A stretch of 64,000 nt of DNA, from positions 372,001 through 436,000 of the forward strand of contig JAWPHD010000140.1 of the NCBI GenBank assembly GCA_037043455.1. The letters are read 5' to 3'. The notes beneath the pieces are model-generated. The model saw only the letters and a list, made by a program, of their open reading frames with translations, was not told where the DNA came from and made no database searches. This DNA comes from Cyrtodaria siliqua. Taxonomy: Eukaryota; Mollusca; Bivalvia; Adapedonta; Hiatellidae. Shown piece by piece: positions 15,432 to 50,200 of this stretch. The stretch's first letter is position 1. Each line of letters opens with the position of its first letter. The translations under genes and the position numbers were made by a program.

Positions 15432-15985
15432 TTAGTCGATAGTGTAATGGTATGTAATCAAGTAGTCGATAGTGTAATGGTATGTATTGAAGTAGTCGAT
15501 AGTGTAATGGTTTGTAATCAAGTAGTCGATAGTGTAATGGTATGTTTTCAAGTAGTCGATAGTATGATAGTATGTAATCAAGTAGTCGATAGTGTAATGG
15601 TATGTAATCAAGTAGTCGATAATGTAATGGTAAGTAATCAAAAAGTCGATAGTGTACTGGTATGTATTCAAGTAGTCGATGGTGTAATGGTATGTAATCA
15701 AGTAGTCGATAGTGTAATGGTATGTAATCAAGTAGTCGATAGTGTAATGGTATGTATTCAAGTAGTCCATAGTGTAATGGTATGTAATCAAGTAGTCGAT
15801 AGTGTAATGGTATGTATTCAAGTAGTCGATAGTGTAATAGTATCTAATCAAGTAGTCGATAGTGTACTGGTAAGTAATCAAGTAGTCGATAGTGTACTGG
15901 TATGTATTCAAGTAGTCGATAGTGTAATGGTATGTAATCAAGTAGTCGATAGTGTAATGGTGTGTAATCAGGCAGTCGATATTGT
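15432..15985 (+). repeat. Minisatellite, 30-bp unit, about 18 copies
   Basis: The unit is GTAGTCGATAGTGTAATGG followed by TATGTAATCAA, 30 bp with about 10% divergence. Degenerate units with AGAAGAAAAAGTCGATAGTG spacing continue to about 16300. Because 30 is divisible by three and the unit lacks stops, frames stay open on both strands: a 233-codon frame at 15324-16025 (decapeptide VVDSVMVCNQ) and a 267-codon antisense frame. I treat both as repeat artefacts. Each unit contains GGTATGT, a plausible 5' splice-site core on the strand of the downstream cadherin gene. Confidence 0.95.
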
Positions 15986-16481
15986 AAGGGTGTGTAGAGA
16001 AGAAAAAGTCGATAGTGTAAAATAGTGTGTAGAAAAGAAAAAAGCCTATATTGTAGTGAGTAGACATGCAAAAGCCGTTGATATAAGGATTTGTAGACAA
16101 GAAGATGCCGATATTGTAAGACAGTGTAGAGATGAAGATGAAGCCGATAGTGTAAAAGTGTGTAAACAAGAAGCCGGTAGTGGAATAGTATATAGACAAA
16201 GAGATACTTATAGTGTAAGAGTGAGTATAGAACAATAATTCGATGGTGTAAGAGTGGATATACAGGAAGAAACAACTAGTGTTAGATTTTTAGATAAATA
16301 GCGCCAAAAATTGTAAGAGTGTGTAGGCAATAATTAGTCGTTTTGGTAAAGCTTGTAGACAAGATCGAAGAAGTAAATAGCAAGGGATTGTATATGCAAG
16401 AAGAAATCGATAGTGTAAGAGTTTCAGAGTTTGTAGACAAGAAATAGAAAAATTATATAGTGAAAGATATATAATATATAG

Positions 16482-20200: not shown

Positions 20201-23200
20201 ATTGTTAATTATTCCCACTTAGATGGGAGGTTCCCCGAGCTAGTTCTTATGGGGTCTATGTTTCTCAACTTACTCGTTTCTCTAGAGCTTGTAGTCGTGT
20301 TGAGGACTTTAATATTCGTAATATTTGTATAACTAAAAAGCTACTCTATCAGGGCTACCGTTACCATAAACTTCGAACAATTTGCAAAATTATATTATCG
20401 TAACACTGATCTACATTTAAAATAAAAAAGTAATTTAAGAACTCTTCTGCGACAAGGACTATCACAACTTGACTTCTATGGTGATGTGATTTACAAACTT
20501 CGTCAGATCCTTGGTAATAATCACTTTCATACAATCTTTATTAAACTTGTTAAAAAGTTTGCCAAAAGATGTTATGACCCTATAATTTTGCAACGTACTG
20601 CATGTGTAGTGGTTGACCCATTTACTGTTCGCCACTATGCTTTCGTCTTTGATTGTGCGATGACCGGACAGATTGTTGACTCTATGATGACGTCTTCTTA
20701 AATCCTTATAGGACGATATAGGCGTTTGATGTTTGTCTTAAATCTTGGCTTGTCGTACCCTTAACGGTTTGTTCTATTGTTGCTCTGGCTTCTGCCAAGT
20801 CAATGAGAACTTACTTTGTGGCTTTCTAGACTTTTATATATTATATATACATGATCATTTATGTGTTTTACTTACCTGTTATGAACAGACTCAATACAAC
20901 CGAGTCTGCTACTTTTATCTCTTGTTTGTTGCTTCCAAGGGATCCGATTATTGGGATGACAATAGGGTAAGAGTGAGGTTTGGTGCACCCTATAACCTGG
21001 TTGAAACCCCCAGCGGTTTTTTGCCACTGACCGTTCAAATGCGGTAGCCCTATTGTCAACCCTTTTGTGTTTGTGATGTCTTATCTGGCATTTTATTCAT
21101 CTTTAAAGTCGTTCTTTGTTTTGGTGTGTGCTTGCGGTTGACTGTCGTCCTTCAATTTTACTTTTCCTGTTCGACTTTTATATCTACTTGTATTCGTTTT
21201 CTAGAAATTGTAATCGTGCTGAGGACTTTAACATTCGTAATTAACTAAAAGGCTAATTCAGCATAGCTTCCGTTATCAGAAACATCGAAAAACATTTGCA
21301 AAATGTTATTATCGTAACCCTGATCTACTTCTAAAATATAAAAGTAATTTAAGAACTATTCTGCAACAATGAATATCACAACCTGACTTCTATGCTGATG
21401 CGATTTACAAACTTCGTAAGATCCTTGGTCATAATAACTTTGATACAATCTTGATTAAAGTTGTTTAAATTGTATGAAAGAGTTTATGACCCTATCATTT
21501 TGCAACGCACTGCATGTTTAGTGGTTGACCCATTAGCAGTTCGCCACTATGATTTTCTCTTTGATTGTGCAATGACCGGACAGATTGTGGACCTATGATG
21601 ACGTCTGCTTAAATTCTCATAAGACAGTAGCGTTTGATGTGTGTCTTAAATCTTGTCTTGTTCTTCTCTTGTTGCACTGTATTTTGCAATTCATCGAGCA
21701 CTTGCTATTTATATATTACATATACACGATCATTTATGTGTTATACTTGTACTGCCTATTAATGCTGCCTTGTCTGTTAGAGACTATGACCTGGCGGGGA
21801 TATCTTTATTTACACTGTCCCGTTTTGTTGATGACTATAGGGTAAGAGTGAGGTTTGGTGCACCCTAGAACCTGGTTTAAACCCCCAGCGGCGTTTTTGG
21901 AAAATTGACCGTTCCAAGTCCCTATTGTCAACCCATTTATGTTTTTGAAATCATATCTTGCCTTTTATTCATCTTTGTAGTTGTTGTTTGTTTCTGTTCG
22001 TGTTTGTTGTCGACTGTGGTTCCTGAATACTACATTTATTGTTTGACTTTTATATCTAATTTTTTGGTAAAGATTAGATATAAAATGAAGTTGTTAGAGT
22101 GTTCACAAGGCATAGTATGGCATTTTTCAATAAATTAAGTGCCGTGGTGTTACGGATCCACGTAGCTATTTTTTTTTAATTCGTTACGAGTTTTCATTGA
22201 TATCAACAATATGGGTTTTGTTTAATAAAGATCAAATATAAAATGAATGTGCAAGGAAGAATTTTTCATTGTTCAATAAATCAAAGTAATAAAATATAAA
22301 GTTTGGTAAATTGCATATACAAAAGGAAGATGCTATAGTGCGCGCAATGCACAATATGGCTTTTTCAATAAATCAAGGGGATCATAACTCTGGTGTTCCT
22401 GGTCCGATATAGTTTGTTTTCGAACATGTCCGATCTTTCATTGATATCAAACAATATTTTCATGTTTAGTAAAGATCAAATACTAAACGAAGCTTCTACA
22501 GTGTGTTCAAGGGTGAAACTTGTCTGTTTTCGTGTTTGTTTCTGTGTTTTGTGGTTGACTGTCCTCCTTGAATGCTACTTTCCCTGTCCGATCTTTTTAT
22601 ATCTCTTTACATTTGCCAGTAAAAGAAAGGTCATAACTCTGGTGTTACGTATCCAGTCGAGCTAATCGGAGCTTTCACTGTTATGAAGCTCCTGCTAAAG
22701 TTGAGTAAAGATCAAATTAAACATGAAGTGCTAGAATGTTCACAATACTAGATTTAACGGACGGACGACGGCGGACGTTGAGTAAAATAGGTGGTGTGTA
22801 TTTATATAAAAAATTTAGAAGTACATTTTTGACAGGAAGAATTAGAGGCTATAAGTATACAGGGAAATTAAAGGAAAATCATTCACACTGCCAGTTTAAA
22901 CATACTTATTCTGCATTAAGCGCGAATGAACATCCAATATATACCCATTGCTTCATTCTTGCTCTCCACAGTGGTTCATTGCTCCCCAATATATGCTCAC
23001 TGCATCATATACTTCCTTTCCACATTGCCCAAATACTCTCCACAGTGGTGCATTGCTCCAATGTATACACATTGCTTCCTACTTCCTCTCCACAGTGGTT
23101 CATTGTCCCGATAATAACTCCTTGCTTCCTACTTCCTCTACACAGAGGTTCATTGCCCCAATATATACTGATTGCTTCATACATGCTCTCCACATTGTTT

Positions 23201-26200
23201 CATTGCCTCGATATATACTCATTGCGTCATATTTGCTCACCACAGTGGTGCATTGTCCCGATATATCCGTATTGCTTCATGCTTTCTTTCCACAGTTGTT
23301 CATTGTCCCAATATATACTCATTGATTCCTACATATTCTCCACGGAGGTTCATTACCCCTATATATACTGATTGCTTCATACTTCTCTCCACATTGGTAC
23401 ATTATCCCAATATATACTGATTGCTTCCTACTTCCTCTCCACAGTGGTTCATTGTCCCGATAATTACTCATTGCTTCATACTTCTCCTACACAGAGATGC
23501 ATTGCTCCAATATATACTAATTGGTTCATACTTCCTCCCCACAGTGGTTCATTCACCCAATATATACTCATTGCTTCCTACTTCCTCTTCACAGTGGTTC
23601 ATCGCCCCCAATATATACTCATTGCATCATACTTGCTCTCCACATTGGTTCATTGCCTCAATATATACTCATTGCGTCATATTTGCTCCCCACAGTGGTG
23701 CTTTGTCCCCAATATATACTTATTGCTTCATACTTCCTCTCCACAGTTGTTTATTGCCCCAATATATACTCATTGATTCCTACATACTCTCCACAGAGGT
23801 TTATACTGATTGCTTCATAATTCTCTCCACATTGGTACATTGCCCCAATATAAACTGATTGCTTCCTACTTCCACTCCACAGTGATACTTTGCCCCAATA
23901 TATACTCATTGCGTTATACTTCCTCTCCACAGAGGTTTATTACCCCCATATATACTCATTGCGTCATACTTCTTCTCCACAGTGGCTCATTGCCCCAATA
24001 TATACACATTGCTTCATACGTCTTCTCCACATAGGTTCATTAACCCAATATATACACATTGATTCATACTTCCTCTCTACAGAGGTTCATTGCTCCAATA
24101 TATACTCATTGATTCATACTTCCTCTTCACAGCGGTGCATTGCCCCAATATACACTGATCGATTCATACTTCTCTCCACAATGATGCATTGCCCCAATAT
24201 ATAATCCATGCTTCGTTCTTCCTCTACAGAGAGGTTCATTGCCCCCAATTTATACTCATTGCTTCCTACTTTCTCTCCACATTGGTTCATTTCCCTAATA
24301 TATACTCATTGCGTCATACTTCCTCTCCACAGAGGTTTATTACCCCGATATACACTCATTGCGTCATACTTCTTCTCCACAGTGGTTCATTGCCCCAATA
24401 TATACATATTGCTTCATACTTATTCTCCACAGAGGTTCATTAACCCAATATATACTCACTGATTCATACTTCCTCTCTACAGAGGTTCATTGCTTCGATA
24501 TATACTCATTGCGTCATACTTCCTCTCTACAGAGGTTCATTGCTCTAATATATACTCATTGCGTCATACTTCCTCTCCACAGTGGTTCATTGCTCCAGTA
24601 TATACTCATTGCGTCATACTTCCTCTCCACATCAGTTCATTGTCCCAATATATACATATTGCTTCACACTTATTTTCCACAGAAGTTCATTGCCCCAGTA
24701 TCTATTCATTGATGTATACTTCCCTCCACAGTGGTTCATTGCCCCAATATATACTCATTGCTTCATACTTCCTCTAGACAGTGCTTCATTGCCCCCTATA
24801 TATACTCATTGCTTCATACTTCCTCTCCACAGTGGTTCATTGCCACAGTATATACTCATTGCTTCATACTTCCTCTCCACAGTGGTTCATTGCCACAGTA
24901 TATACTCATTGCTTCATACTTCCTCTCCACAGAGGTTCATTGCCCTAATATATACTCCTCGCTTCCTAATTCCACTCCATAGTGGTTCATTTGCCACAAT
25001 ATGTGCACGTTGCTTCATACTTCCTAGGCACAGAGGTTTTTGCCACAATATATACTGCTCGCTTCCTACTACCTCTCCACAGTGGTTCATTGCCCCAATA
25101 TATACACATTGCTTCATACTTCCTCTCCACAGAGGTTCATTGCCCTAATATATACTCCTCGCTTCCTACTTCCTATCCACAGTGGTTCATTGGTCACAAT
25201 ATATACGCATTGCTTCAAACTTCCTCTCCAAAGAGGTTCATTGCCCCAATATATACTCATTGCTTCTCACTTCCTCTCCAAAGAGGTTCATTGCCCCAAT
25301 ATATACATATTGCTTCATACCTCTTCTCCACAGAGGTTCATTGCCCCAATATATACTCATTGCTTCATACTTCCTCTAGACAGTGGTTCATTGCCCCAGT
25401 ATATATTCATTGCTTCATACTTCCTCTAGACAGTGGTTCATTGCCCCCAGTATATACTCATTGCTTCATACTGCCTCTAGACAGTGGTTTATTGCCTCAA
25501 TATATACTCATTGATTCATACTTCCTCTCCACAAAGTTTCAATGACCCATTATATACCGATTGCTTCATACTTCCTCTCCACAGTGATATCTTGTCACAA
25601 TATATACTCCTCGCTTCCTACTTCCTCACCACAGTGGTTCATTTGCAACAATATAATAAAATTATACACATTTCGTCATACTACCTCTCCAAAGAGGTTC
25701 ATTGACTCCAATATATACGCATTGCTTCCTACTTCCTCTCCACTATTGCACATTGCCATAATATACTTTAATTGCTTCATACTTTCTATCCTCAGCGGTA
25801 CACTGCCCCAATATATAAATATTGCTTCATACTTCTCCACAGAGGTCCATTGCCCCAATAATACAATATATACTCATCGATTCATACTTCCTCTCCACAG
25901 AGTTTCATTGTCCCAATATATACTCATTGCTTCATTCTTCCTCTCCATAATGGTTTATTGCCCCATTATATACCGATTGCTTCATACTTTCTCTCCACAG
26001 TGGTTTATTGCCCCAGTGTATACTCATAGATTGCTACTTCCTCTAAACATATGTTCATTGCCCCAATATATACTCATTGCTTCGTACTTACACTCCACAG
26101 TGGTGCATTGCCCAAATATATACTCAATGCTTCGTACTTACACTCCACAGTGTCGCATTGCCCCAATATATACGCATTGCGTCATACTTCCTCTACACAT

Positions 26201-29200
26201 AGGTTCATTGCCTCAATATATATTCATTGCTTCATACTTCCTCTCCACAGTGGTTCATTGACCCAATATATACTCATTGCTTCCTATTTCCTCTTCACAG
26301 TGGTTCATTGCCCCCAATATATACTCATCGCTTCCTACTTGCTCTCCACATTGGTTCATTGCCACAATATATACTCATTGCGTCATACTTGCTCTCCACA
26401 GCGATGCATTGTCCCCAGTATATACTTATTGCTTAATACTTACTCTCCATAGTAGTTCATTGCCCCAATATATACTCATTACTTCATACTTGATCTCCAC
26501 ATTGTTTCGTTGCCTCGATATATACTCATTGCGTCATATTTGCTGTCCACAGTGGTGCATTGTCCCCAATATATCCGTATTGGTTCATACTTTCTCTCCA
26601 CAGTTGTTCATTGCCCGAATATATACTCATTGATTCCTACATACTCCCCACAGAGGTTCAATAACCCAATATATACTCATTGCTTCATACTTCTCTCCAC
26701 ATTGGTACATTGCCCCAATATATATTGATTGCTTCCTACTTCCTCTCCACAGTGGTTCATTGCCCCGATAATTACTCATTGCTTCATACTTCCTCTACAC
26801 AGAGGTGCATTGCTCCAATATATACTCATTGCTTCATACTTCCTTTCCAGAGTGGTTCATTGACCCAATATATACTCATTGCTTCCTACTTCCTCTTCAC
26901 AGTGGTTCATTGCCCAAATATATAATATACTCATTGCTTCATACTTACTCTCCACATTGGTTCATTGCCTCAATATATACTCATTGTGACATACTTGCTC
27001 TCCACAGTGGTGCATCGTCCCCAATATATACTTATTGCTTCATACTTCTCTCCACAGTGGTTCATTACCCCAATATATACTTATTGCTTCATACTTCCTC
27101 TCCACAGTGGTTCATTACCCCAATATATACTGATTGCTTCATACTTCTCTCCACATTGGTACATTGCCCCAATATATACTGATTGCTTTATTGCCACAAT
27201 ATAGTTATATACACTACTTCATACTTTCTTTCCACAGTGGTTCATTACCCCAATATATACTCATTGCTTCATACTTCCTCTCCACAGTGGTTCATTACCC
27301 CAATATATACTGATTGCTTCATACTTCTCTCCACATTGGTACATTGCCCCAATATATACTGATTGCTTTATTGCCACAATATAGTTATATACACTACTTC
27401 ATACTTTCTTTCCACAGTGGTTCATTGCTACAATGTATACTCATTGCATCATACTTCCACTACACAGAGGTGCATTACTCAAATATACACTCATTTCTTC
27501 ATACAGAGGTTCATTGCTCCAATACATACTTATTGATTCATACTTCCTCTCCACAATGGTGCATTTCCCCAAAATATACTCCTTGCTTCGTTCTTCCTAT
27601 ACAGAGAGGTTCATTGCCCCCAATATATACTCATTGCTTCCTACTTTCTCTCCACATTGGTTCATTTCCCTAATATATACTCACTGCGTCAAACTTCCTT
27701 TCCACAGAGGTTTATTACCCCGATATGTACTCATTGCGTCATACTTCTTCTCCACAGTGGTTCATAGCCCCAATATATACATATTGCTTCATACTTCTTA
27801 TCCACAGAGGTTCATTGCTCCAATATATACTCATTGCGTCATACTTCCTCTCTACAGAGGTTCATTGCTCCAATATATACTCATTGATTCATACTTCCTC
27901 TCCACAGCGGTTCATTGTCCAAATATATACTTATTGCTTCATACTTCTTCTCCAAAGAGGTTCATTGCCCCAATATATACTCATTGCTCCATACTTCCTC
28001 TAGACAGTGGTTCATTCCCCCAATATATACTCATTGATTCATACTTCCTCTCCACAGAGTGTCATTGTCCCAATATATACTCATTGCTTCATACTTCCTC
28101 TCCACAGAGTGTCATTGTCCCAATATATACCGATTGCTTCATACTTCCGTTCCAAAGTGGTTTATTGCCACAATATATATTGCTCGCTTCCTACTTCCTC
28201 TCCACAGTGGTTCATTGCCACAGTATATACACATTGCTTCATACATCCTCTCCACAGAGGTTCATTGCCCTAATATATACTCCTCGCTTCCTAATGCCAC
28301 TCCATAGTGGTTCATTTGCCACAATATGTGCACGTTGCTTCATACTTCCTCTCCAAAGAGGTTCATTGCCCCCAATATATACTCATTGCTTCCTACTTCT
28401 TCTCCACGATTGTACAATATATACTAATGGCTTCATACTTCCTATGCTCATCGGTACATTGCCAAAATATATACATATTGCTTCATACTTCCTCTAGACA
28501 GTGGTCCATTGCCCCCAATATATAGTCATTACTTCATACTTCCTCTAGACAGTGGTTCAATGTCCCATTATATACCGATTGCTTCATACTTCCTCTTCAC
28601 AGTGGTTCATTGCCCAAATATATAATATACTCATTGCTTCATACTTACTCTCCACATTGGTTCATTGCCTCAATATATACTCATTGTGACATACTTGCTC
28701 TCCACAGTGGTGCATCGTCCCCAATATATACTTATTGCTTCATACTTCTCTCCACAGTGGTTCATTACCCCAATATATACTTATTGCTTCATACTTCCTC
28801 TCCACAGTGGTTCATTACCCCAATATATACTGATTGCTTCATACTTCTCTCCACATTGGTACATTGCCCCAATATATACTGATTGCTTTATTGCCACAAT
28901 ATAGTTATATACACTACTTCATACTTTCTTTCCACAGTGGTTCATTACCCCAATATATACTCATTGCTTCATACTTCCTCTCCACAGTGGTTCATTACCC
29001 CAATATATACTGATTGCTTCATACTTCTCTCCGCATTGGTACATTGCCCCAATATATACTGATTGCTTTATTGCCACAATATAGTTATATACACTACTTC
29101 ATACTTTCTTTCCACAGTGGTTCATTGCTACAATGTATACTCATTGCATCATACTTCCACTACACAGAGGTGCATTACTCAAATATACACTCATTTCTTC

Positions 29201-32200
29201 ATACAGAGGTTCATTGCTCCAATACATACTTATTGATTCATACTTCCTTTCCACAATGGTGCATTTCCCCAAAATATACTCCTTGCTTCGTTCTTCCTAT
29301 ACAGAGAGGTTCATTGCCCCCAATATATACTCATTGCTTCCTACTTTCTCTCCACATTGGTTCATTTCCCTAATATATACTCACTGCGTCAAACTTCCTT
29401 TCCACAGAGGTTTATTACCCCGATATGTACTCATTGCGTCATACTTCTTCTCCACAGTGGTTCATAGCCCCAATATATACATATTGCTTCATACTTCTTA
29501 TCCACAGAGGTTCATTGCTCCAATATATACTCATTGCGTCATACTTCCTCTCTACAGAGGTTCATTGCTCCAATATATACTCATTGATTCATACTTCCTC
29601 TCCACAGCGGTTCATTGTCCAAATATATACTTATTGCTTCATACTTCTTCTCCAAAGAGGTTCATTGCCCCAATATATACTCATTGCTTCATACTTCCTC
29701 TAGACAGTGGTTCATTCCCCCAATATATACTCATTGATTCATACTTCCTCTCCACAGAGTGTCATTGTCCCAATATATACTCATTGCTTTATACTTCCTC
29801 TCCACAGAGTGTCATTGTCCCAATATATACCGATTGCTTCATACTTCCGTTCCAAAGTGGTTTATTGCCACAATATATATTGCTCGCTTCCTACTTCCTC
29901 TCCACAGTGGTTCATTGCCACAGTATATACACATTGCTTCATACATCCTCTCCACAGAGGTTCATTGCCCTAATATATACTCCTCGCTTCCTAATGCCAC
30001 TCCATAGTGGTTCATTTGCCACAATATGTGCACGTTGCTTCATACTTCCTCTCCAAAGAGGTTCATTGCCCCCAATATATACTCATTGCTTCCTACTTCT
30101 TCTCCACGATTGTACAATATATACTAATGGCTTCATACTTCCTATGCTCATCGGTACATTGCCAAAATATATACATATTGCTTCATACTTCCTCTAGACA
30201 GTGGTCCATTGCCCCCAATATATAGTCATTACTTCATACTTCCTCTAGACAGTGGTTCAATGTCCCATTATATACCGATTGCTTCATACTTCCTCTCCAC
30301 AGTGGCTCATTGCCCCAATATATACTCATTGCTTCCTACATCCTCTCCAAGGTTGTACATTGCCATAATATATACTCATTGCTTCATACTTCCTATCCAC
30401 AGTGGTTCATTGCCCCCAATGTATACACATTGCTTTATACCTTCTTTCCACAGAGGTTCAATGCCTCAATATATACTCATTGCTTCCTATTTCCTCTCTA
30501 TGGTTGTACATTGCCATAATATATACTCATTGCTTCATACTTCCTATCCACAGCGGTACATTGCCAAAATATATACATATTGCTTCATACTTCTTCTACA
30601 CAGAGGTTCTTTGCCCCAATATATGCTCCTAGCTTCGTACTTCCTATCCACAGTGTTCCATTGCCCCAATATACAATGATTGCTTCATACCGTTCTCCAC
30701 AATGGTGCATTGCCCCAATATATACTCCTTGCTTCGTTCTTCCTCTACAGAGAGGTTCATTGCCCCCAATATATACTCATTGCTTCCTACGTTCTCTCCA
30801 TATTGGTTCATTTACCTAATATATACTCACTGATTCATATTTCCGCTCTACAGAGGTTCATTGCTCCAATATATACTCATTGCGTCATACTTCCTCTCTA
30901 CAGAGGTTCATTGCTCCAATATATACTCATTGCTTCTTACTTCCTCTCCACAGCGGTTCGTTGTCCCAATATACACTTATTGCTTCATACTTCTTATCCA
31001 AAGAGGTTTATTGCCCCAGTATATATTCATTGATTCCTACTTCCTCTCCACAGTGGTTCATTGCCCCAATATATGCTCATTGCTTCATACTTCCTCTAGA
31101 CAGTGGTTCATTGCCCTAATATATACTCATTGATTCATACTTCCTCTCTACAGATTGTCATTGTCCCAATATATACGCATTGCTTCATACTTATTCTCCA
31201 CATTGGTTCATTGCATAATATATACTGCTCAATTCCTACTTCCTCTCCACAGTGGTTCATTGCCACAATATATACACACTGCTTCATACTTCCTCTCCAC
31301 AGAGGTTCATTGCTCTAATATATACTCCTCGCTTCCTACTTCCTCTCCATAGTGGTTCATTTGCCACAATATGTGCATGTTGCATCATACTTCCTCTCCA
31401 AAGATGTCCATTGCCCCAATATATACTCATTGCTTCATACTTCCTCTAGACAGTGGTACATTGCCCCAATATATACTCATTGTTTCATACTTCCTCTAGA
31501 CAGTGGTTCATTGCCCCATTATATACCGATTGCTTCATACTTCCTCTCCACACAGGTTTATTGCCACAGTATATACTCATTGCTTCCTACTTCCTCTCCA
31601 CAGTGGTGCATTGCTCCAATACATACTCATTGCTTCATACTTCTTCTCCACTGTGGTGCATTGCTCCAATATATTCTCATTGCTTCCTACTTCCTCTCCA
31701 CAATGGTTCATTGCTCCAATGTATCACATTGTTTCATACCTTCTTTCCACAGAGATTCAATGCCCCAATATATACTCATTGCTTCCTACTTCGTCTCTAG
31801 GGTTGTACATTGCCATAATATATACTCATTGCTTCATACTTCCTATCCACAGCGGTACATTGCCCCAATATATACATATTGCTTCATACTTCTTCTACCT
31901 AGAGGTTCCTTGCCCCAATATATGCTCCTAGCTTCGTACTTCCTGTCCACAGTGTTCCATTGCCCTAATATATACTGATTGTTTTCTACTTCCTCTCCAC
32001 AGCGGTGAATTGCTCCAATATATACCCATTGCTTCATACTTCTCTCCACAGTTGTGCGTTGCTCCAATATATACCCATTGCTTCATACTTCTCTCCACAG
32101 TTGTGCGTTGCTCCAATATATACTCATTGGTTCATACTTCCTCTCGACAGAGGTTCATTGCTCCAATATATACTCATTGCTTCATACTTCCTCTCCACAG

Positions 32201-35200
32201 TTGTGCGTTGCTCCAATATATACCCATTGCTTCATACTTCTCTCCACAGTTGTGCGTTGCTCCAATATATACTCATTGGTTCATACTTCCTCTCGACAGA
32301 GGTTCATTGCTCCAATATATACTCATTGCTTCATACTTCCTTTCGACAGATGTTCATTGCTCCAATATATACTCATTGCTTCCTACTTCCTCTCCACAGT
32401 GGTGCGTTGCTCCAATATATACCCATTGCTTCATACTTCTCTCCACAGTTGTGCGTTGCTCCAATATATACCCATTGCTTCATACTTCTCTCCACAGTGG
32501 TGCGTTGCTCCAATGTATACTCATTGCTTCATACTTCCTCTCGACTAAGGTTCATTGCTCCAGTAAATACTCATTACTTCATACTTCCTATCCTCAGTGG
32601 TACATTGCTCCAATACATACTCATTGCTTCATATTTCTTCTCGACAGAGGTTCATTGCTCCAATACATACTCCTTGCTTCATACTTCCTCTCCACAATGG
32701 TGCATTGCTCGAATACATACTCATTGCTTCATACTTCCTCTCTACATTGGTTCATTGCTCCGATATATGCTCATATATTCATACTTCCTCTCAACTGTGG
32801 TTCATTTCTCCAATATATACTCATTGCTTCATACTTCCTTTAGACAGAGGTTCATTGCTCCAATACATACTCATTGCTTCATACTTTCTATCCACAGTGG
32901 TGCATTGCCCAATATATACTCATTGCTTCCTACTTCCTCTCGACAGAGGTTCATTGCTCCAATACATACTCATTGCTTCATACTTTCTATCCACAGTTGT
33001 GCATTTCCCAAATATAATCATTGATTCCTACTTCCTCTACACAGTGGTGCATTGCTCCAATATAATACTTCCTCTCCACAGCGTTTCATTGCTCCAATGA
33101 ATACTCATTGCTTCATACTTTCTATCCACAGTGGTGCATTGCCCAATATATACTCATTGCTTCCTACTTCCTCTCCACAGTGGTGCATTGCTCCAATATA
33201 ATACTTCCTCTCGACAGAGGTTCATTGCTCCAATACATACTCATTGCTTCATACTTTCTATCCACAGTTGTGCATTGATCCAATATATAAGCATTGCTTC
33301 AAACATCCTCTCGACAGAGGTTCATTGCTCCAATACATACTCATTGCTTCATACTTTCTATCCACAGAGGTGCATTGCACAATATATACTCATTGCTTCC
33401 TACTTCCTCTCCACATTGGTGCATTGCTCCAATATATACTCATTGCTTCATACTTCTTCTCGACGGAGGTTCATTGCTCCAATACATACTCATTGCTTCA
33501 TACTTCCTATCCACAGTGGCACATTTCCCTATTATATACTAATTGCTTCATACTTCCTCTCCACAATGATTCATTGCCCCTATATATACTCATTGATCCA
33601 TACTTCCACAGAGGTTGTTGCATTGCCCAAAAATATACTCATTGCTTCATACTTACTCTCCACAGAGGTTCATGTCCACAATGTATGCTCATTGCTGCAT
33701 ACTTCCTCTCAACAGCGGTTCATTTCCCACAATATATACTCATTGCTTCATACTTTAGTAGTCACGTGACAAACAATTAAGTCATTGCTTACGTCTCATA
33801 GCTTGCGCTGTATGGCGTCAAATGGTCTCAGCTTTTTCAACAGTGGTGCATTGCTCCAATATGTACACATTGCTTCAAACTTCCTCTCCATAGAAGTTCG
33901 CTGCATGAATGTATACTTGTTGTTTCTTACGTCATCTACACAGAGTTTCATTGTCCCAATTTATTCTCAGTGCTTCATACTTTCTCCCCATGGGAGTTAA
34001 TTATCACCAATTTATAATATTTTGTTCGTCCTCAATATATCCTCATTGCTTAATACTGTCTCCCTACACCCGCCGAGGCTGATTGCCCATTATTCATGTT
34101 TACAGATTGGAAGCCAAGCACCGATTGGAGACAAAGAATCAAACTTCCTGTTGCGGGTGCAGGTGCAATTACCTTAGCAGTTACTCGGTCTGCAGATCTG
34201 GCAAAAGTAGATGCTTACGAAATATCATTCTACTATAACACGTTTACGTCGTTCTACATGATGGAAATAAGGCAATCTATAGATCGAGATGTAAGTGTTC
34301 TTGTAAATACATGTATAAGTGGCATATGAAGCAAAAATACGTCGTCTTTGTGTTTTAATCATTTAGCCATTTGCATAAAAATCTGAAAAATACAATTTTT
34401 TCGTAAAGGTTCACACGCCAATCTTATAATTAAAATAATTAATCAGCACCTCATCATGTTCTCATCAGTTATATAATCTGTTGTATTCGATTTATGTCAT
34501 TGCGTTACATATATTACCCTCACAGAAATATTTTATGTTTAAGAAATCAAATATTACCTGCTGGTTTATATTGTGCCTTTGTGGGCGGGACTTGGAGATC
34601 ATCGTAAGCTAGATCGCTAAATCAAAAATGTATTCTATGGCCGAGCGCTAATTTATCATTGCGCTAATATGCCCGAAACCATCGAAGCGCTAAATTTTGA
34701 TTACGCTAAACAATCATTTCTTACAGTATGCCGTAGACACGCTATTTAGAAAGTGTTCAAGTTTCATAATCCAGGTGTTTATCTGGCAGAATAGAAACCA
34801 GATTGAAATCCTTTATTTTTAATCTGACATGACTTGTTTATGTATATAATACACACTTTTTCGAGAGACTGACCTGTTCTTACGACTTACATTATATGCC
34901 CATTTCATACCATCAACCAAAGAAAATATGCTTCATCCTTTTTTATCAACTTAAATGTGTTGTTTGAACGGTGCTTTAAATTACATGATGTTTAGCATAA
35001 GATCGTTTAAAATGACGTCTTAACGGTTAAAGGGCGTGACGTCAGAGGTGTTTATATGAAATGTAATACCTACTCAATAACCAATCAGCATTGAGTATTT
35101 TAACAAAAAATATTAGATTATAATATAATGTAACGATAGAAATAAGATGTTTCAATGAAACGAAACTTTGACCCAGTTTTACCCATTGTTTCCATTCCCA

Positions 35201-38200
35201 ATATATACTGAAAGGAAAAAGAAACGCAGGGTGCGTATTTCCGCTATATATTCCAAGGAAATCCCAAGATGTTTTGTAAAAAAAAAAGTGCAGTTAGTTA
35301 GACAAAGGACACAACTGTGAAGTTGTAGACGTTTTAATCACAGTACACGTTGTAACAAGAAATTCATAAATGCTGAAGTTCCTCTTCAAAAAATTGAGCC
35401 AGTTCAGTACTGTATTTAATGTTAAGTGATCGAAACATTTAAAGCCTAAGTTTGCTCACCTGCTTGAGCCAAATGCGCATTCTGACGATAATGAAACGTT
35501 AAAATTGTAACCATTGGTGTGTTCAGTGCTGTTTAAACCTTCATTCTAAAAGGACAGGCCTAATGTCGCCCTGTACCATTCGATTAGCAGTAGCATATTA
35601 AACATACAATATATAGCGGAAATACGCACCCTGCGTTTCGTTTTCCTTTCAGTATATATAATTATATATAGGTGTTTTTTTCTGTATGTGTTTAATTTTT
35701 TCATTACAATTTATAAGATTGATAAATACTAGAAATAATTTATTTTCGTAAAAGGTTAGGCAAGTGAATAACCAGGACGATCTGGATGTGATTCTGTTTA
35801 CTGTCACATGTTCTTATGATGTTAATGGGCAACCGGTAAGTGATTTAACCCGATTCAGTTCAATAGTGGATGTTCCTATGATGTTTATAGGTCACTGATA
35901 AGTGTTTTAGACGTTATTCAGTTGTTCACTATCTGATTTTCCTATGCGATTTCTGGGTCACTGGTAAGTATTTCAGACATTTAATTCGCTGTCTGATTTA
36001 TCTATGATGTTTCTGGGTCACCGGGAATTGTTTTTCAGCGTGGTTCAGTTCATTGTCCGGTATCAAGGTCACCTGTAAGTATTTTAGACCTTATTCAGTT
36101 CACTATTCGATGTTCCTGTGCTAGTTCTGGGTCATCAGTAAGTATTTTAGACGTTATTCAGTTCACTATTCGGTGTTCCTGTGCTGGTTCTGGGTCATCA
36201 GTAAGTATTTTAGACGTTATTCAGTTCACTATTCGATGTTCCTGTGCTGGTTCTGGGTCATCAGTAAGTATTTTAGACGTTATTCAGTTCACTATTCGAT
36301 GTTCTTGTGCTAGTTCTGGGTCATCAGTAAGTATTTTAGACGTTATTCAGTTCACTATTCGATGTTCCGGTGCTGGTTCTAGGTCATCAGTAATTATTTC
36401 AGACGTTATTCAGTTCACTATTCGATGTTCCTGTGCTAATTCTGGGTCATCAGTAAGTATTTTAGACGTTATTCAGTTCACTATTCGATGTTCCTGTGCT
36501 AGTTCTGGGTCATCAGTAAGTATTTTAGACGTTATTCAGTTCACTATTCGGTGTTCCTGTGCTAGTTCTGGGTCATCAGTAAGTATTTTAGACGTTATTC
36601 AATTCACTATTCGGTGTTCCTGTGCTAGTTCGGGGTCATCAGTAAGTATTTTAGACGTTATTCAGTTCACTATTCGATGTTCCTGTGCTAGTTCTGGGTC
36701 ATCAGTAAGTATTTTAGACGTTATTCAGTTCACTATTCGATGTTCCTTTGCTAGTTCTGGGTCATCAGTAAGTATTTTAGACGTTATTTAGTTCACTATT
36801 CGATATTCCTGTGCTAGTTCTGGGTCATCAGTAAGTATTTTAGACGTTATTCAGTTCACTATTCGATGTTCCTGTGCTAGTTCTGGGTCATCAGTAAGTA
36901 TTATAGACGTTATTCAGTTCACCATTTGATGTTCCTGTAAAGTGTCTGGGTCATCAGTAAGTGTTTTAGACGTTATTCAGTTCACTGTCAGGTGTTTCTA
37001 TAATGTTTATGGACAAGCTGTAAGTGATTTTAACACGATTCAGTTCACTGTTCGATATTCCTGTGATATTTATGGGTCACTGGTGAATGTTTTAAAAGTT
37101 ATTCAGTTCATTACTAGATTTTTATATGATGTTTCTGGGTCACCGGGAATTGTTTTTCAGCGTATTTTAGACGTTATTCAGTTCACTATTCGATGTTCTT
37201 GTGCTAGTTCTGGGTCATCAGTAAGTATTTTAGACGTTATTCAATTCACTATTCGATGTTCCTGTGCTGGTTCTAGGTCATCAGTAATTATTTTAGACGT
37301 TATTCAGTTCACTATTCGATGTTCCTGTGCTAATTCTGGGTCATCAGTAAGTATTTTAGACGTTATTCAGTTCACTATTCGGTGTTCCTGTGCTAGTTCT
37401 GGGTCATCAGTAAGTATTTTAGACGTTATTCAGTTGTTCACTATCTGATTTTCCTATGCGATTTCTGGGTCACTGGTAAGTATTTCAGACATTTAATTCG
37501 CCGTCTGATTTTCCTATGATGATTCTGGGTCACCGGGAATTGTTTTTCAGCGTGGTTCAGTTCATTGTCCGGTATCAAGGTCACCTGTAAGTATTTTAGA
37601 CCTTATTCAGTTCACTATTCGATGTTCCTGTGCTAGTTCTGGGTCATCAGTAAGTATTTTAGACGTTATTCAGTTCACTATTCGGTGTTACTGTGCTGGT
37701 TCTGGGTCATCAGTAAGTATTTTAGACGTTATTCAGTTCACTATTCGATGTTCCTGTGCTGGTTCTGGGTCATCAGTAAGTATTTTAGACGTTATTCAGT
37801 TCACTATTCGATGTTCTTGTGCTAGTTCTGGGTCATCAGTAAGTATTTTAGACGTTATTCAGTTCACTATTCGATGTTCCTGTGCTGGTTCTAGGTCATC
37901 AGTAATTATTTTAGACGTTATTCAGTTCACTATTCGATGTTCCTGTGCTAATTCTGGGTCATCAGTAAGTATTTTAGACGTTATTCAGTTCACTATTCGA
38001 TGTTCCTGTGCTAGTTCTGGGTCATCAGTAAGTATTTTAGACGTTATTCAGTTCACTATTCGGTGTTCCTGTGCTAGTTCTGGGTCATCAGTAAGTATTT
38101 TAGACGTTATTCAATTCACTATTCGGTGTTCCTGTGCTAGTTCGGGGTCATCAGTAAGTATTTTAGACGTTATTCAGTTCACTATTCGATGTTCCTGTGC

Positions 38201-41200
38201 TAGTTCTGGGTCATCAGTAAGTATTTTAGACGTTATTCAGTTCACTATTCGATGTTCCTTTGCTAGTTCTGGGTCATCAGTAAGTATTTTAGACGTTATT
38301 TAGTTCACTATTATGTGTTCCTGTGCTAGTTCTGGGTCATCAGTAAGTATTTTAGACGTTATTCAGTTCACTATTCGATGTTCCTGTGCTAGTTCTGGGT
38401 CATCAGTAAGTATTTTAGACGTTATTCAGTTCACCATTTGATGTTCCTGTAAAGTGTCTGGGTCATCAGTAAGTGTTTTAGACGTCGTTCAGTTCACTGT
38501 CAGGTGTTTCTATAATGTTTATGGACAAGCTGTAAGTGATTTTAACACGATTCAATTCACTGTTCGATATTCCTGTGATATTTATGGGTCACTGGTGAAT
38601 GTTTTAAAAGTTATTCAGTTCATTACTAGATTTTTATATGATGTTTCTGGATAACCGGTAATTGTTTTTAAAGTTATTCAGTTCAATGTCTGATGTTGGT
38701 ATGATGTTTTTGGGTAACCGGTTATTGTTTTTTAAAATTATTGGGTTCACTGTCTGATGTTGGTGTGATAATTCTGGGTAACCGGTAATTGTTTTAGAAG
38801 TTATTCTGTTTTCTGATAGGTGTTCCTATGATATTAATGGTACACCGGTAAGTGTTTTAGAAGTTATGCCTATTCAGTTTACTTTTAGATGTTTCTATGG
38901 TGTTCATGCGGTACCTGTACGTGTTTTAGTCGTTATTGAGTTCATTGGTCGATGTGCCTATAATGTTTTTTGGTAACAGGTTATTGTTTTAAAAGTAGTT
39001 AATAATATCTATCCTAAGGAACTTCAACTCAACAAAGCTAACATTTCTGATACTGTCGCTTCTTTTCTTGATTTATATCTCTCTATTGAAAATGGTGAAA
39101 TAATTAGTAAAATGTATGGCAAGAGAGATGATTTTAATTTTGATATTGTTAATTATTCCCATTTAGATGGGGATGTTCCCTAGCTACTTCTTATGGGGTC
39201 TATGTTTCTCAACTTATTCGTTTCTCTAGAACTTGCAGTCGTGTTGAGGAGTTTAAAATTCGTAATATTTGTATAACTAAAAAGCTACTCCAGCAGGGCT
39301 ACAGGGCTTAAAATATTTATCAAGAAGGTTATGACCCAATCATTTTGCAACGTACTGCATATTTAGTGGTTGACCCATTTACAGTTCGCCACTATGCTTT
39401 CCTCTTTGATTGTGTGATGACCAGACAGATTGTGGACTCTATGATGACGTTTACCTAAATACTTATAGGACGGTAGCGTTTGATGCTTGTCTTTAATCTT
39501 GACTTGTCGTACCCTTAACGATTTGTTTTCTTGTTGCTTAATTCAATGAGTACTTACTTTGTGGCTTTTTAGGCTTTTGTTTTTTATATAATATATATAT
39601 AAACATGACCATTTATGTGTTTTACTTATATTGCCTATTAACGCTGTCTTTTGTGTTAGAGATTATAACCTGGCGGGGATATCGTTATTTACACTGTTCC
39701 GTTTATGGGGATGACAATAGGGTAAGAATGAGGTTTGGTGCACCTTAGAACCTTGTTTAACACCCCCCCCCCCCCACCCCCCAGCGGCTTTTTTTGCCAC
39801 TGATCGTTCCAAGGCGGTGTCCCTAATGTCAACCCTAGTGTGTTTGTGATGTCTTATCTTTCCTTTTATTCATCTTTATATATAGTTGTTCTTTGTTTCT
39901 ATGTGTGTTTGTTGTTGACTGTCGTCCTTAAATGCTACTTTTCCTGTTCGATTTTTATATCTGCTTTTATTCAGTTCCCTGTTCGATGTTTTTGTGTAAC
40001 CGGTAAGATGTTAATGAGTCACTGGTTAATGTTTTTGACGTTATTCAGTATACCGGCCGACGTCAAGGTCACCGGTATGTATCGTAGACGTCATTCAGTT
40101 CATTGTCCGATGTTTCTGTGAATGTTAATGGTACACCGGTAACTGTTTAGATGTTATTCAGTCCACTGTTCCTATGATGTTTCTGGGTCACATAATTTAG
40201 ATGTTATTCTCTGTTATTCGATTCAATGCTCGACTTTCCTATGATGTTTATGTGTCACTGGTAAATGATTTAAGTCATTCTTTAGTTAATTCAGGAATGA
40301 TACAGGTTTGATAAGCAACACATAGACAATAGGTTATTCTAAAAGCGCTTTCAAGTATACACTTTCGTTGAACTTAAAGTTCTGGATGTTAAAAATTCAC
40401 AGTAGGAAAACGCAACTGTACTTCCAATGGAAGTTGTGTTGAAATATTGCGCAATATCACGACATCTGTTAGAGGTGCCCAATTGATGCCGGTAAGAACC
40501 TTGTTTATTGGTAGATTTTCAGAAAATCGTTGATTACAGTTTATTACTGAGTCCCTAATTGTAGTCCAGAATATACAAACACTTGTTTTAGACAATGCAT
40601 AATTTTTCTCTCCACGACACTTGACAATCGTAAAAAAGTTGTAAACAATTGCTTATTTTGTTCAAACGAGGTACGATTGTATCAGCTTTTGAATGTCATG
40701 TTAGAAATAAACCACAGACCTTGAAAATGTGGGGTTCATTAGCAGGTATTTGTGAGCTTATAACGATAGAGAAATGTTTCTGTCAAAACATGGTGTACTC
40801 ATAGTTGCAATTTTTTAAATATTCACTGTCTGGTTGGAAAAACAAAGGTCAGTTGGACAAAGGCCTTACCAAGCTATAAACGTATTATATCAGTTTGGCA
40901 GTCAGTTCCCACTATATATTGCATATTAAATAACAGTAGTATTTTATTTCAACCCTAGTTGCCTGAAATATAAAGAAGTATTTAGGATGTTTTATTCTGT
41001 ATATCGAAGTTTATATATATGCCCCAGTGCGTTGCAAATTCATCATTGTCCAACGGTTATAGTTATGTTTACTAAACAGTGAGTCACTGAGCAATAATAT
41101 AATGTTATACCGAAATCAATAATGGTCTTGTTCAACAAATATAGGATATGACGTACGGACGGACTTAGCAGTTACTTCTACATGACAACTCACCGCATAC

Positions 41201-44200
41201 AAATGGGATAATAAACAGACTAACAGAAGTTGCCACTGATACTCATTGATTTTTCAATATATGTCAGTTATTTTTTATTGAAATTATTTTGGATTGACAC
41301 ATCTTAAGTGGAGTCCACATTGTGGGTAAAAACATTCGTAAACATGAAAAATGTATTAACTTTCTCCGTTATCGGTTTCATATTGAACATGCTTTAACCC
41401 CAACTAGGAGTACAAACCTTTGGAAGCTCAACGCAACTACAATACACCGAAACCTGCAACTATGAGTATAGTAAATATGGATAGTACGATCCATTTCAAC
41501 CACACAAACTAGCTATATTAACAAGAAACCGAGTGTACCTATACTAATTTCCACTTTTCTTAGATGTTAATGTTATTTTTGGTGTGTGGTTTTATAAAAA
41601 TAATCATAAATCGACCATTTTTTTGTCAAATGTTTACACCCGGTAGACACAATTTTCACTTGTTGTCGATGTTTTCATTTGATTTTTTTGACTTTTATAC
41701 GGCATTCTAATGAACGTGCTTCCGCAAGAGGCATCATCAAAGTATGTAAATCTGCCAGTATACAAGAAACCTCGTCAAAAAGGTCGCAAAATAACTGCTT
41801 ACCAAAAGGTAACACTGTAACACCTCACAAACATCGCTTCACATCGAATCCATCGATTCACAAAACACAACTTCCGTTGGGAGTACAGTAGTGGTCGACT
41901 ACTGTGAAATTAAAGTAGGACGGTGTTCCCTAATATTGAAATAGATCTAATTACTGCTTATGGTTAAAATAAGTACCAACTATTGCAACAGTCTCAATTG
42001 TTCCTGATATTCAATTAGTTCAATATATGTGATTGCCATTTTATTCAGGACCATCGGAATATCGTGGCGGTATTTATGCAAACAATAGTTCGTCCGTCAG
42101 TATCGCGGTATTTAAACATTCGCACATTTTGGAAATTCAGAAAATAAAATTGAAATTTTTTTTACTGATAAGTTCGTCGAGGATTTGCTTTCTAAAAAGA
42201 AGTCAAATATATGTTTGAAAAGTGTAAACAATTCATTTAGTCAATGATATGTGTTGATAGTCAAACAAAGATACATGCATGGACACATGGAGATAGTAAA
42301 AGTTAACCCAACCGCAGAAAACTATCATTAAAAATGTTCCCATATTTTAAGCGAATTAATTCAGTATGTTTTATTTAATAGATTTTACATTTGAATTTAA
42401 AATACGTTTTCGATGTTTTTCAAATAAAGTAAGAGTAGACAACTATGAAACTATTTTAATGCACAGGCTTTGTTTTGACATATAACATTGACGTTTTTCC
42501 ATTTATAGGCTGAGGACTTTGTGGATATTAGGATTAAAATCGTTGATTCCAACGATAATGCGCCTCAGTTCGAGAAACTACCATATTCTGTCAATATCAA
42601 GGAGGTGAGTGAATAATATATTAATTAATATATTCCGAACAATATTTGCTGGTATCTAAATGGCTACTGACAAATAGAGATACTCTTATTATCTAAAAAC
42701 CCGAGTCTAGATTCTACTTATGCAGGTCGTCCGGTTTCTTGTTTAACAAATATCGCATGCCGATAATTGTTCAAACAAACATCGGTTAAGATGTTTGAGG
42801 TGGGGTGGGGCGGGTGAGCAAAAGGGTGTCTCATAACTTGATAACAGCAAATTGAATTTGATGATAATAAAAACAAATAATTAAAAACGCTATAAACAGT
42901 TAATATAATCAAGTTTACGACACGTGGGTCGCCAACAACATACATGTATAACATTAAATTAACGAATAACAGATAGCAGTTAATTTTATTTAAACCCAAC
43001 AGATAACAAATATAAATTTCGTCAATAACAGCTTATCAGAAATAACCCTCCCACGGCCCCTACGACCCCACACCCTTCTCCTCAATATTGTCAAAGAGAT
43101 TACACGTTGTTATGGAAACAGAGTTTGGTAATCAAGCCTTTATCATGATTTATCGAGGTACATCATTAAAGAAAAGAGTTTGACATATATTTTACATTTA
43201 TTCAGAACGAAATGATACGTGATTTACGATATTTCTAAAAACGAAGCATAACTGTAAGTCAAAGCATAATGAAAACAAAAACACACATCGTAAGATATAG
43301 TAATTGATGTTGGTTCATCCAAAACCAGAGGGAAAAAATAACGCCGCTTGTAATTTAATTTTAATACAATGCAAATACACGATACATTACGGTAGTGAAA
43401 AAAGGCTACATGCTGTAACTCGTGTTCTCATAGATTATTAAATTATCAGCTGCCGCCAGTGAACAATGTTTCTGCCGATACCCTAAACCATTTCAAAGAG
43501 AAACATGCAGCACAGCTGCTTGACAAAAATGCTTTAGTATCAATAAAAGTAGATACATATTTCGAAAAGGAAACGGAGCAATCATAAACGCAGTCAACCA
43601 AAACACAACAACAAAGTTACATCGATGAATAATCATTTAGACGTTTAGTAAATGTCATCACAAACAAAATAGTTGACACTAGGGGTACCGCCTTGGAACG
43701 GTCAGTGGCAAAAAGGAAAAAGGCCACTGGGTTTTTAATCAGGTTTGAGTTTGCAACAAACCTCACTGTTACTCTATTGTCATCCAAATAAACCGCGACT
43801 GTATATAGGGGGCACTCCTCAGTTTCGCATGAATGTCCATGGTGTAAATCAGAAAGAAATCAACTAAGCATCTTTTAGGTCCATGGATGGTCTTTATAAT
43901 AATTATGAAGCACATGTTTGATGTTTTTTTCAGTTTTGATTACTTCTAAGTTTATTTTGGTGTATTGGAATATTCATTCTTTGGGTTTTTTGGAGGCTAT
44001 AAATAGAAAAATGTGAACCAATCAAAAACTTCCTAAAAGTACTTAAAATGGCTGATTTTCACTGACGAGGAGATCAGCATGGAATAACTTTTTTAAAATG
44101 CCGGACTAGGTATGTAAAATTTAGCATTTTCTGATATGCAAGAGCATTATGAGTGCAGACATGACCCTGATATGTGTAGGAATTTTTTTTTTTTATTTAA

Positions 44201-47200: not shown

Positions 47201-50200
47201 TTGCTTTTATTATTACTTTTGCCTTCTTGTTTGTCTGTTTGCGTGTTTGTTTCTGTGTTTTGTGGTTGACTGTCCTCCTTGAATGCTATTTTCCCTGTCC
47301 GATCTTTTTATATTTCTTTATATAGAGCTACAGTATCTTTAAGTTTGCAATAGTTATTACATCTATTGACACATGAAATAATAGTAAATACAACTTAGAG
47401 TTAACGGATCAAAGATACATAATTTCCTATCATGCATGAAATATGACTTTATCCGACGGGTCGCGTGTTCTACATAGACTTTCATAGAAAAACAATTTTT
47501 AAAACATCTTGTTCTCTGAAAGCACGAGAGCTAGGTTTCTCGTATAGTACACGTAGATGATTAGGCTTATGGTACTCTATGACAACACCCCCACCCCCCT
47601 CCCCCCACCCACCCGAATTTCGTTTTTTGCCATTGGCCGTTCCAGTACTGGTCATCCCTCTTTTGAGGTGTCGCATACCTCGCGTTTATTGTTTATTGTG
47701 GTTGGTTGTTTGTTTTGATTGAGTGAGTTGTTTAAATCCATTTTCTGTTCGACGTTTACACCTACATTTGTTAAATGGTGACACTTGGGTTAAATTCTGC
47801 CGGGCTTCAGGGGTCACTGTTATCCACAGAGTTGTTAAGGAATTTCCTTTTATAATGCTCTCTGAACCCACAAGGCGTTTGTCTGTTTGCGTGTTTGTTT
47901 CTGTGTTTTGTGGTTGACTGTCCTCCTTGAATACTACTTTCCCTGTCCGATTTTTTTATATTTCTTTAGAGCTCTAATATATGCATATAGCATCGGATTA
48001 TGGTCTTTCTCCATATTTGCTGAAATGGTAACCCTGAGGACAATTTTTGCTCTGCCCTAGACGTCATAATTATGTTGTAGATACTTGTATAGAGAAATAC
48101 TTGAAAAACTTCTCTTTTCTGAAACCACACAAGCCTTGGCTCTAATATATTTGCATGTAATGGCATTCGCTTATATTTCGTATAGAAGTATATAGAAAAA
48201 ACCTTTGTCTCTCTTTTTCGCTTAAAGTATAATGGCTGCATTTTTGACAGTTTGTGTGTATCATTGGATCGAATTACTGAAACTGAATTAATATACACAA
48301 TGGCTGAAGTGTTAATATTGGCTCAACCTATGTGCTAGTATACGCCCCCCACCCCCCCCCCCCCCCCACCCCCCACCCCACCACCACACACACATACACA
48401 CACACACCTCCCCAACGTCATTTATTGCCACTGACCGTTCGAAGATGGTAGCCCTATTGTCAACCCTTTCATGTTTGTGCTCTCATATCCTGCCTTTTAT
48501 CCATGTTTATAAGTATCTATTGTCTGTTTCTGTGCGTGTTTTTGGTTGACTCTGGTCTTGAATGCTGTATTTCCTGTTCGACTTTTATATCTGTTTTATA
48601 TAAAATATAGGAAAAAAGTTATCCCGCTTCTTTTCGGAAACTGTAATGGGTGGATTTCTGATAGTTTGCATGTAGCACTGGATACTGTTACTGAACTGAA
48701 TTATGGTTCTACATAGGAACTATTGTATTTTTATATAAAAATATATATGGACAACCTTAATTAAAATTCTTCTGAAACAGTTATGGTTACAGTTATGGTA
48801 TTTTGCATGCAATAATAGTGCTATACTGTTTTGTGGCTTCAATATAAGACTATTTTATCTCACCCTCTTATGTTACAGTTGCAAGTGTCAACAATATGAC
48901 TGACTAGGTTATGAGGTGAATTATTTAGGATCCTGAGACCCTATTGCTTTAACAATAGTCTTGATTTATTTCTTCTCTCATTATACGAAGTTTAATTTAT
49001 AAAACGTGTAATTGATAGCATTTGTGTTGTTTATTTCAGAATGGTCAGACTTTATTCATCATGCCGGATTCTGGTATAGGATTTATTCAATTGTCAAATA
49101 CGCTAGACTACGAACAACTGATTGCAAGTAGTAATACACAGTTCAAAGTCGTAATCACCGCTAAGGTATAGTTTTGTTCACGGGAGACAGGCCGATATTA
49201 ATGTCCATTTTATATGCATTATAAGAAAACAAGCTTCTGTAACGTTGCCTTTCTTGTTCTTCCTAACCCTTGCCTTCATTAAGGTAAACTAATATTGTTA
49301 TTTATTATTTCATACTTTTTAGAATAATGGAGAATTTACGCTAGTCTTTTAAAAATCGTCATAACAACTCAACACTGAATAGAACTATATTCTCTAAAGT
49401 AGCTTTACCTCAGTCAACACTATAGCTTATTGACAATAGTAGTTCATGCAGTGTTGTTAAATTAGACTAGCATGCATAACATTTGAATACTTCATATTTT
49501 GGCAAGAAGGATTCCACTTTCCGAAAATGCGGAGTTAAAATAAATTGTTTACAGAAGTTATAGTGACTTATATTAAATTTTGACTACACAACATGGACAG
49601 ATTGTTTTAAAAATAATAAGGATAGCAATAGAGCAAATGTGCCTTGTTTAATACTTCAGGACAATGCCGTAGCCCCACTGGTACCGCAGACTTCCACAGC
49701 AACAGTAACCATCAACGTGGAGGATAGTGATGACCTTCCGCCAACATTTTATCACCCAGAATGCAGGGCCCTTACCAACATCTTGTACGCTTGTGATGGA
49801 GTACAATATAGTGCATCTGTTGTTTCGGGAATTTTGGTGAGTCATATACACAAACACCAAACACTAAGGAGCAATGCTGAGTCATGTACACCAACACCAA
49901 ACAATAATGAGCAATGTAGTTATGTACACAAACACCAAACACTAATCAGCAATGGTGAGTCAAGTACACAAACACAAAACAATAATAAGCAACAGTGAGT
50001 CACGTATAAAAACACCAAACAATAATGAGCAATGGTGAGTCACGTAAACAAACACACAATAATGCGCAACAGTTTTAGAAGCATAAAACATGTCTTATAT
50101 GTTGACATTGACACAAATTAATATGTTTTATTTATATATTTTTCAATCACAATATTTTTATATTAAAGAAAATATACGAAACATAGATAATCTACCTCTA

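Follow-up and report, generated by a model that had tools for sequence, protein, structure and literature searches.

Minisatellites that arise by tandem duplication across an exon-intron boundary are known from amphioxus (cephalochordates), where they were named 'mirage' minisatellites and were found in the globin genes BflGb6 and BflGb9 and in Adh3 (PMC3087553), with PGBD5 and troponin C as further cases (PMC3902484). According to the excerpts of these two papers on which we draw here, mirages leave normal splicing undisturbed, and their length is unstable between alleles or somatically. In the present work we describe an array behind exon 3 of a cadherin gene of the bivalve Cyrtodaria siliqua, in a stretch of 64,000 nucleotides (assembly GCA_037043455.1, contig JAWPHD010000140.1, positions 372,001 to 436,000 of the forward strand; GC content 36%) that is called the window throughout. 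Its 63-bp unit spans the boundary, joining the last 57 nt of exon 3 to the intron bases GTAAGT. The array is most probably the product of a junction-spanning duplication that grew into a mirage-type intronic minisatellite, mostly inert for splicing. A prediction made earlier from the letters of the window (the original prediction) had held that no described system has this arrangement, which the amphioxus cases contradict.

In the same excerpts, the amphioxus mirages share with the exon 3 array a minisatellite-like tandem duplication across the exon-intron boundary, splice signals (AG or GT) in many but not all copies (here, GTAAGT in register in 36 of 50 units), a homogenised interior from which the boundary units are left out (although here diverged units are also found in interior blocks), and an occurrence at exon edges of both kinds. 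The differences concern size and setting: three and six units were reported for two BflGb6 haplotypes, compared with about 55 here, and the present locus adds an internal repeat offset by 24 units, a transposon insertion, and the presence of two donor-containing arrays and one acceptor-abutting array in a single cadherin gene. By the features that can be checked in sequence, the exon 3 array belongs to the mirage kind, and it exceeds the copy numbers known for BflGb6.

Two other systems are more distant, as far as the cited excerpts describe them. The tandem array of UBC, with its dual-specific splice sites (PMC10809524), also has a splice site in each copy and an in-frame unit length, but its units are coding, their AGGT borders serve as both donor and acceptor, and their use is supported by reverse transcription PCR; the consensus of the exon 3 array lacks AGGT, the array is intronic, and seven of its 50 unit lengths break the frame. 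Internal tandem repeats in human segmental duplications (PMC2812944) likewise lie at exon-intron boundaries, and can change splicing or form novel introns, but they have on average four units of 30 bp and were detected through human RNAs. Our searches of the open-licence literature returned nothing on such arrays in bivalves or cadherins, nor on donors in variable number tandem repeats. Turri, Cuin and Porter are said to have described in 1995 a minisatellite of the human 6-16 gene (IFI6, G1P3) that supplies multiple splice donor sites; reportedly its unit is of 12 bp and the donors are actually used, whereas here the unit has 63 bp, 57 of them exon-derived, and its donors are putative.

Homology of exon 3 and its donor to the array

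The units were delimited by wrap-around alignment of 35776-38995, which sets exon 3 first and then the intronic units to 38986. Exon 3 followed by GTAAGT agrees in 49 of 63 bases with the consensus of the 16 units that have less than 80% identity to the array consensus (the old units), and in 40 of 63 with the consensus of the homogenised core. The best of 5000 dinucleotide shuffles reached 34 (core) and 35 (old consensus). Among 59,138 background positions, compared on both strands and in any rotation with 35601-40400 excluded, the highest value was 34 for either consensus; no shuffle and no background position attained the observed values. The greater closeness of the old consensus is expected if the exon is the ancestor. 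When the window was searched by nhmmer with exon 3 and its donor only, 53 matches were obtained at E<=10: the query itself, 51 in the array on the plus strand, and one at 53296-53260 on the minus strand. It should be noted that most of these matches are weak singly (best non-self E=5.5e-5).

At the protein level, the old-unit consensus translates as VLDVIQFTVRCSYDVSGSPVS and exon 3 plus donor as DLDVILFTVTCSYDVNGQPVS. Direct reading also gives the 15 of 21 identical residues that the original prediction had counted between the peptide of one unit and exon 3 followed by VSD. The same source had placed a 63-bp tandem array directly behind exon 3 and derived it from the exon end and its own donor; the alignment and nhmmer bear out the first claim, and the origin is in line with the agreement to the old consensus and with the 51 of 52 non-self matches that fall in the array. 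The derivation of the array from the end of exon 3 plus its donor is thus strongly supported by sequence comparison.

The similarity stops at the other side of the exon. The 110 bases 5' of exon 3 resemble the unit at chance level (552 of 1000 shuffles equally good) and no copied acceptor was found in them; therefore, the copied piece appears to be the exon end and the donor, without an acceptor. For this same chance-level match, an extension of the array 5' of exon 3 was rejected. Within intron 2, just 5' of exon 3, the segment 35201-35659 carries 52-bp inverted repeats, 98% identical and about 355 bp apart, with ATATAT-like flanks; it is likely a small DNA transposon.

Identity of the host gene

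The peptide of exons 2-8 joined matches the Pfam Cadherin family in a single domain (E=3.6e-14, residues 107-209) and has 26 homologues with E<=0.001. Among its PDB matches, CELSR1 and protocadherin-15 are on top, and the latter covers residues 56-273. On these homologies the host gene is a protocadherin-15-like (PCDH15-like) cadherin gene. The exon 3 peptide (residues 62-81) lies outside the Pfam match; we place it in the preceding cadherin domain because of the PCDH15 alignment and because the alignments of nine of the 26 homologues span residues 66-95. In that domain it would encode the part from IDRD to the DSNDNAP motif, which is aligned in PCDH15 and other cadherins. The 5' edge of the exon could be at 35776 or at 35755, with the frame unchanged, and the acceptor scores are low at both (-6.0 and -4.1, respectively).

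Structure and turnover of the array

In the 50 intronic units, identity to the consensus is at least 90% in 31 (homogenised), below 80% in 16 (divergent, old) and intermediate in three. The divergent units are found at the two ends of the array and also as interior blocks. The repeat joint, to judge from the units at 35843 and 37028, apparently lies between GTAAGT and GAT, which gives 57 exon and six intron bases. The original prediction of roughly 50 copies in 35776..38990 holds for the 50 intronic units to 38986, but it missed five decayed units that lie beyond a transposon fragment and bring the total to about 55. Similarly, the period of 63, divisible by three, stands for the 35 units that have exactly this length, and fails in seven units whose length is no multiple of three.

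The array contains two in-register copies of a stretch of about 1.2 kb, offset by 1512 bp (24 x 63): 1201 of 1216 bases are identical, with 15 mismatches, when 35905-37120 is compared with its counterpart. This internal repeat shows a past change in the length of the array. Together with the distribution of homogenised and old units, it reflects ordinary tandem-repeat turnover. The coordinates of the features are listed in Table 1.

Table 1. Features of the cadherin locus and its repeats (window coordinates; a slash separates exon from intron bases)
Feature	Position	Strand	Remarks
50-bp array 5' of exon 2	22941..34098	+	acceptor-like word TTCCTCTCCACAG; 216 matches of one unit (E<=0.1) to 34004
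Exon 2	34106..34290	+	ends ...QSIDRD then gtaagt, phase 0; acceptor scored
Exon 3 (array unit zero)	35776..35835	+	DDLDVILFTVTCSYDVNGQP, phase 0; cadherin homology, acceptor scores, register with array
Exon 3 donor GTAAGT	35836..35841	+	CCG/GTAAGTGA, U1 duplex -10.1 kcal/mol
Tandem array, 50 intronic units	35843..38986	+	modal 63 bp; homologous to last 57 nt of exon 3 plus GTAAGT
Internal repeat, first copy	35905..37150	+	about 1.2 kb, end approximate
Internal repeat, second copy	37417..38662	+	end approximate
Transposon fragment inside array unit	38997..39967	+	ends approximate; partial copies elsewhere in window
Array remainder, five decayed units	39968..40267	+	nhmmer with old-unit profile, E 1.8e-3 to 3.5e-12
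Exon 4	42509..42604	+	AEDFVDIRIKIVDSNDNAPQFEKLPYSVNIKE; cadherin homology, acceptor scored
Exon 7	49660..49836	+	DNAVAPLVPQTSTATVTINVEDSDDLPPTFYHPEC...; cadherin homology, acceptor scored
Exon 7 donor array	49835..50075	+	TG/GTGAGTCA donor, then 40-bp units, about six copies; GTGAGT at 4 places including the real donor

Members of the transposon family that interrupts the array were observed in the window at 38997-39967, 55613-56813 (parts 55613-55922 and 56117-56813), 20177-21195 (part 20550-21195) and 61279-60620. In one copy, a frame of 167 residues at 55894 has 60 database relatives among 92 candidates.

Splice signals in the array

The splice scores given here, which use the 5' end of U1 and weight tables for donors and acceptors, are crude, and the GTAAGT counts are based on the raw register, not on aligned donors; the unit at 35843 reads ATAAGT in the raw sequence, with an inserted base that the aligned donor hides. 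The original prediction had stated that every unit keeps an optimal 5' splice site. Neither part of this statement could be maintained: 14 of 50 units are without GTAAGT in register and GTAAGTAT occurs 31 times in 35776-38995, while the U1 duplex energy of the commonest core donor, TCA/GTAAGTAT, is -7.5 kcal/mol, weaker than that of exon 3 and far from the -14.0 of CAG/GTAAGTAT. Compared with the exon 3 donor by this energy, 33 of the 36 array GTAAGT donors are weaker and three are equal or stronger. With the donor weight matrix, one array donor, CCG/GTAAGTGT, ties with that of exon 3 and none is higher. The donors of the other exons have energies of -7.3 (exon 2), -11.6 (exon 4), -5.1 (exon 5), -6.8 (exon 6) and -9.2 (exon 7).

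The conservation of the donor was evaluated in 16 distinct old units, from which second copies of the internal repeat were dropped and in which the five units after the transposon were included. The donors have decayed in this set: GT is kept in 12, GTAAGT in three, and one has a gap. The donor hexamer is conserved better than average but does not stand out, being equalled or surpassed by ten of the 57 windows of six columns. At codon positions 1, 2 and 3, old units differ pairwise by 0.278, 0.376 and 0.235, a comparison of overlapping unit pairs that carries no proper significance level. There is no excess at the third position and, therefore, no sign of translation. The frame 36060-36791 was considered as protein-coding and rejected, having no match at E<=0.01 among the best 7986 candidates by shared words.

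Regarding acceptors, the TTTTAG and TTCAG words that had been described as acceptor-like are indeed present, but they score low (medians -5.0 and -2.3, respectively), compared with 2.4 to 3.7 for six real exons. Because exon 3's own acceptor scores -6.0, a weak score alone does not rule out the use of a site as acceptor. Of the 246 AG sites across the array stretch, 10 reach a score of 2.4; seven of these belong to array units and three to the transposon.

Proposed origin and alternative explanations

The history that we propose would begin when the final 57 bases of exon 3 and the first six of the intron were duplicated in tandem, so that the exon was immediately followed by a second copy. 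Since the first, stronger donor would have stayed in use, the copies would have become intron and lost their coding constraint. Amplification of the units by unequal exchange or slippage would have followed, with homogenisation of most of the middle, leaving diverged units at the edges and at some interior spots, as well as the stretch repeated at the 24-unit offset. Finally, a transposon would have split the far end of the array.

Several observations weigh against this history or against parts of it. The core donors are about equal to that of exon 2; they surpass the donors of exons 5 and 6, although they remain below those of exons 3, 4 and 7, and therefore they could be used. In the old units, the donor hexamer matches exon 3 on average at 0.80, compared with 0.67 for the other preceding columns. 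The seven AG sites in array units mentioned above score 2.7 to 5.1, like real acceptors, and each has a GTAAGT at most 75 nt downstream. Exon 3 itself has the lowest acceptor of the seven scored, so its annotation depends on homology and reading phase. In addition, the two or three exon-edge arrays in this gene exceed what would be expected from a single chance event.

The first and the third of these points are among those on which a functional reading, of the kind offered by the original prediction, would build: the array would serve as a set of U1 sites, or supply optional in-frame micro-exons of 39 nt, and so regulate or diversify the transcript. The 36 GTAAGT donors lie within 4.4 kb, and in 27 of them an AG is placed exactly 39 nt upstream and frame 0 is open, so that in-frame cassettes (FTIRCSCASSGSS-type inserts) are possible on paper. 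We consider this reading unlikely: if exon 3 is extended into the array, an in-frame stop at 35896 precedes the first array GTAAGT, at 35964, and with it all 36; the regular acceptor words score low; the old-unit differences are not enriched at position 3; 14 of 50 units lack GTAAGT in register and seven have lengths that are no multiple of three; and homogenisation alone accounts for the uniform core.

The weak acceptor of exon 3 at either 5' edge, against the scores of the six other exons, would also fit an older array from one unit of which exon 3 was recruited. This exonisation is very unlikely in our view, since the exon corresponds to the IDRD-to-DSNDNAP stretch of a cadherin domain, the unit was not found in the 110 upstream bases, and it is the old consensus, not the young one, that is nearest to the exon. 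That an unrelated minisatellite came to abut exon 3 by chance, with a merely compositional resemblance, is hardly credible. Tandem repeats are indeed abundant in the window (49 rows, overlapping ones included), but no shuffle and no background position equals the observed similarity, the array is contiguous and in register with the exon, and the probability that an array placed at random has an edge no more than 10 bp from an exon boundary is about 0.01, a value computed after the arrays had been seen.

With a junction-spanning duplication as its origin, the locus would be a large example of an exon junction that became a minisatellite, in which the direction of change can be read because the ancestral exon is still in place. 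The dozens of near-identical donors that follow a single real one offer a natural test of spliceosome choice, that is, of the first site versus the strongest. What is new here is the copy number and the clustering of arrays at the exon edges of one gene.

Other exon-edge arrays and repeats in the window

After the exon 7 donor TTG/GTGAGTCA, GTGAGT is repeated at 49955, 49995 and 50035, and two of the three match the U1 energy of the real donor. The unit of this array holds the donor and just two exon bases; the last 60 nt of exon 7 resemble it no better than shuffles do (402 of 1000 as good). At the other edge type, the 11-kb array of 50-bp units shows degenerate homology that stops some 8 bp short of exon 2: none of 1000 shuffles and none of 1000 random window pieces matched the unit as well as 34040-34106 did, while the final 44 bases match weakly by themselves (34 of 1000 shuffles as good). 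AG sites scoring at least 2.4 make up 139 of 298 in this array, compared with 50 of 2410 outside both arrays. Placing it in the cadherin gene presupposes a further upstream exon. Exon 2 was discarded as its founder, because the exon is unmatched (152 of 1000 shuffles as good) and the match is confined to the intron flank. A 155-bp array (45857-46477) that might reach exon 5 is weak (48 of 1000 shuffles as good) and is not claimed.

Several exon-edge arrays in one gene raise the question of whether tandem duplication starts preferentially at junctions, and tandem duplication has been proposed as a step in intron gain, in the parts of the literature cited here (PMC3087553, PMC3443670). A broader proposal is that tandem amplification was repeatedly junction-seeded in this gene, and perhaps in the genome (about 55 copies at the exon 3 donor, about six at the exon 7 donor, about 216 copies of an acceptor-like unit at the exon 2 acceptor flank), and that the arrays thereby supply the pre-mRNA with a flood of U1 and acceptor sites that can be used. 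We regard it as improbable; if true, the flooding sites would alter exon definition or provide 39-nt in-frame cassettes.

Inside the 50-bp array, 27038-28497 and 28738-30197 are near-repeats at an offset of 1700 bp, with nearly identical frames of 370 residues at 27385 and 29085. Scans of the window with Rfam (gathering scores) and for tRNAs gave no matches. A reverse-transcriptase-like frame at 537-1520 (Pfam RVT_1, under the curated cut-off) is one that we take to be Penelope-like. Finally, a 30-bp array of 18.8 copies at 15433-15996 carries a donor-like GGTATGT in most units, and no neighbouring exon was identified for it.

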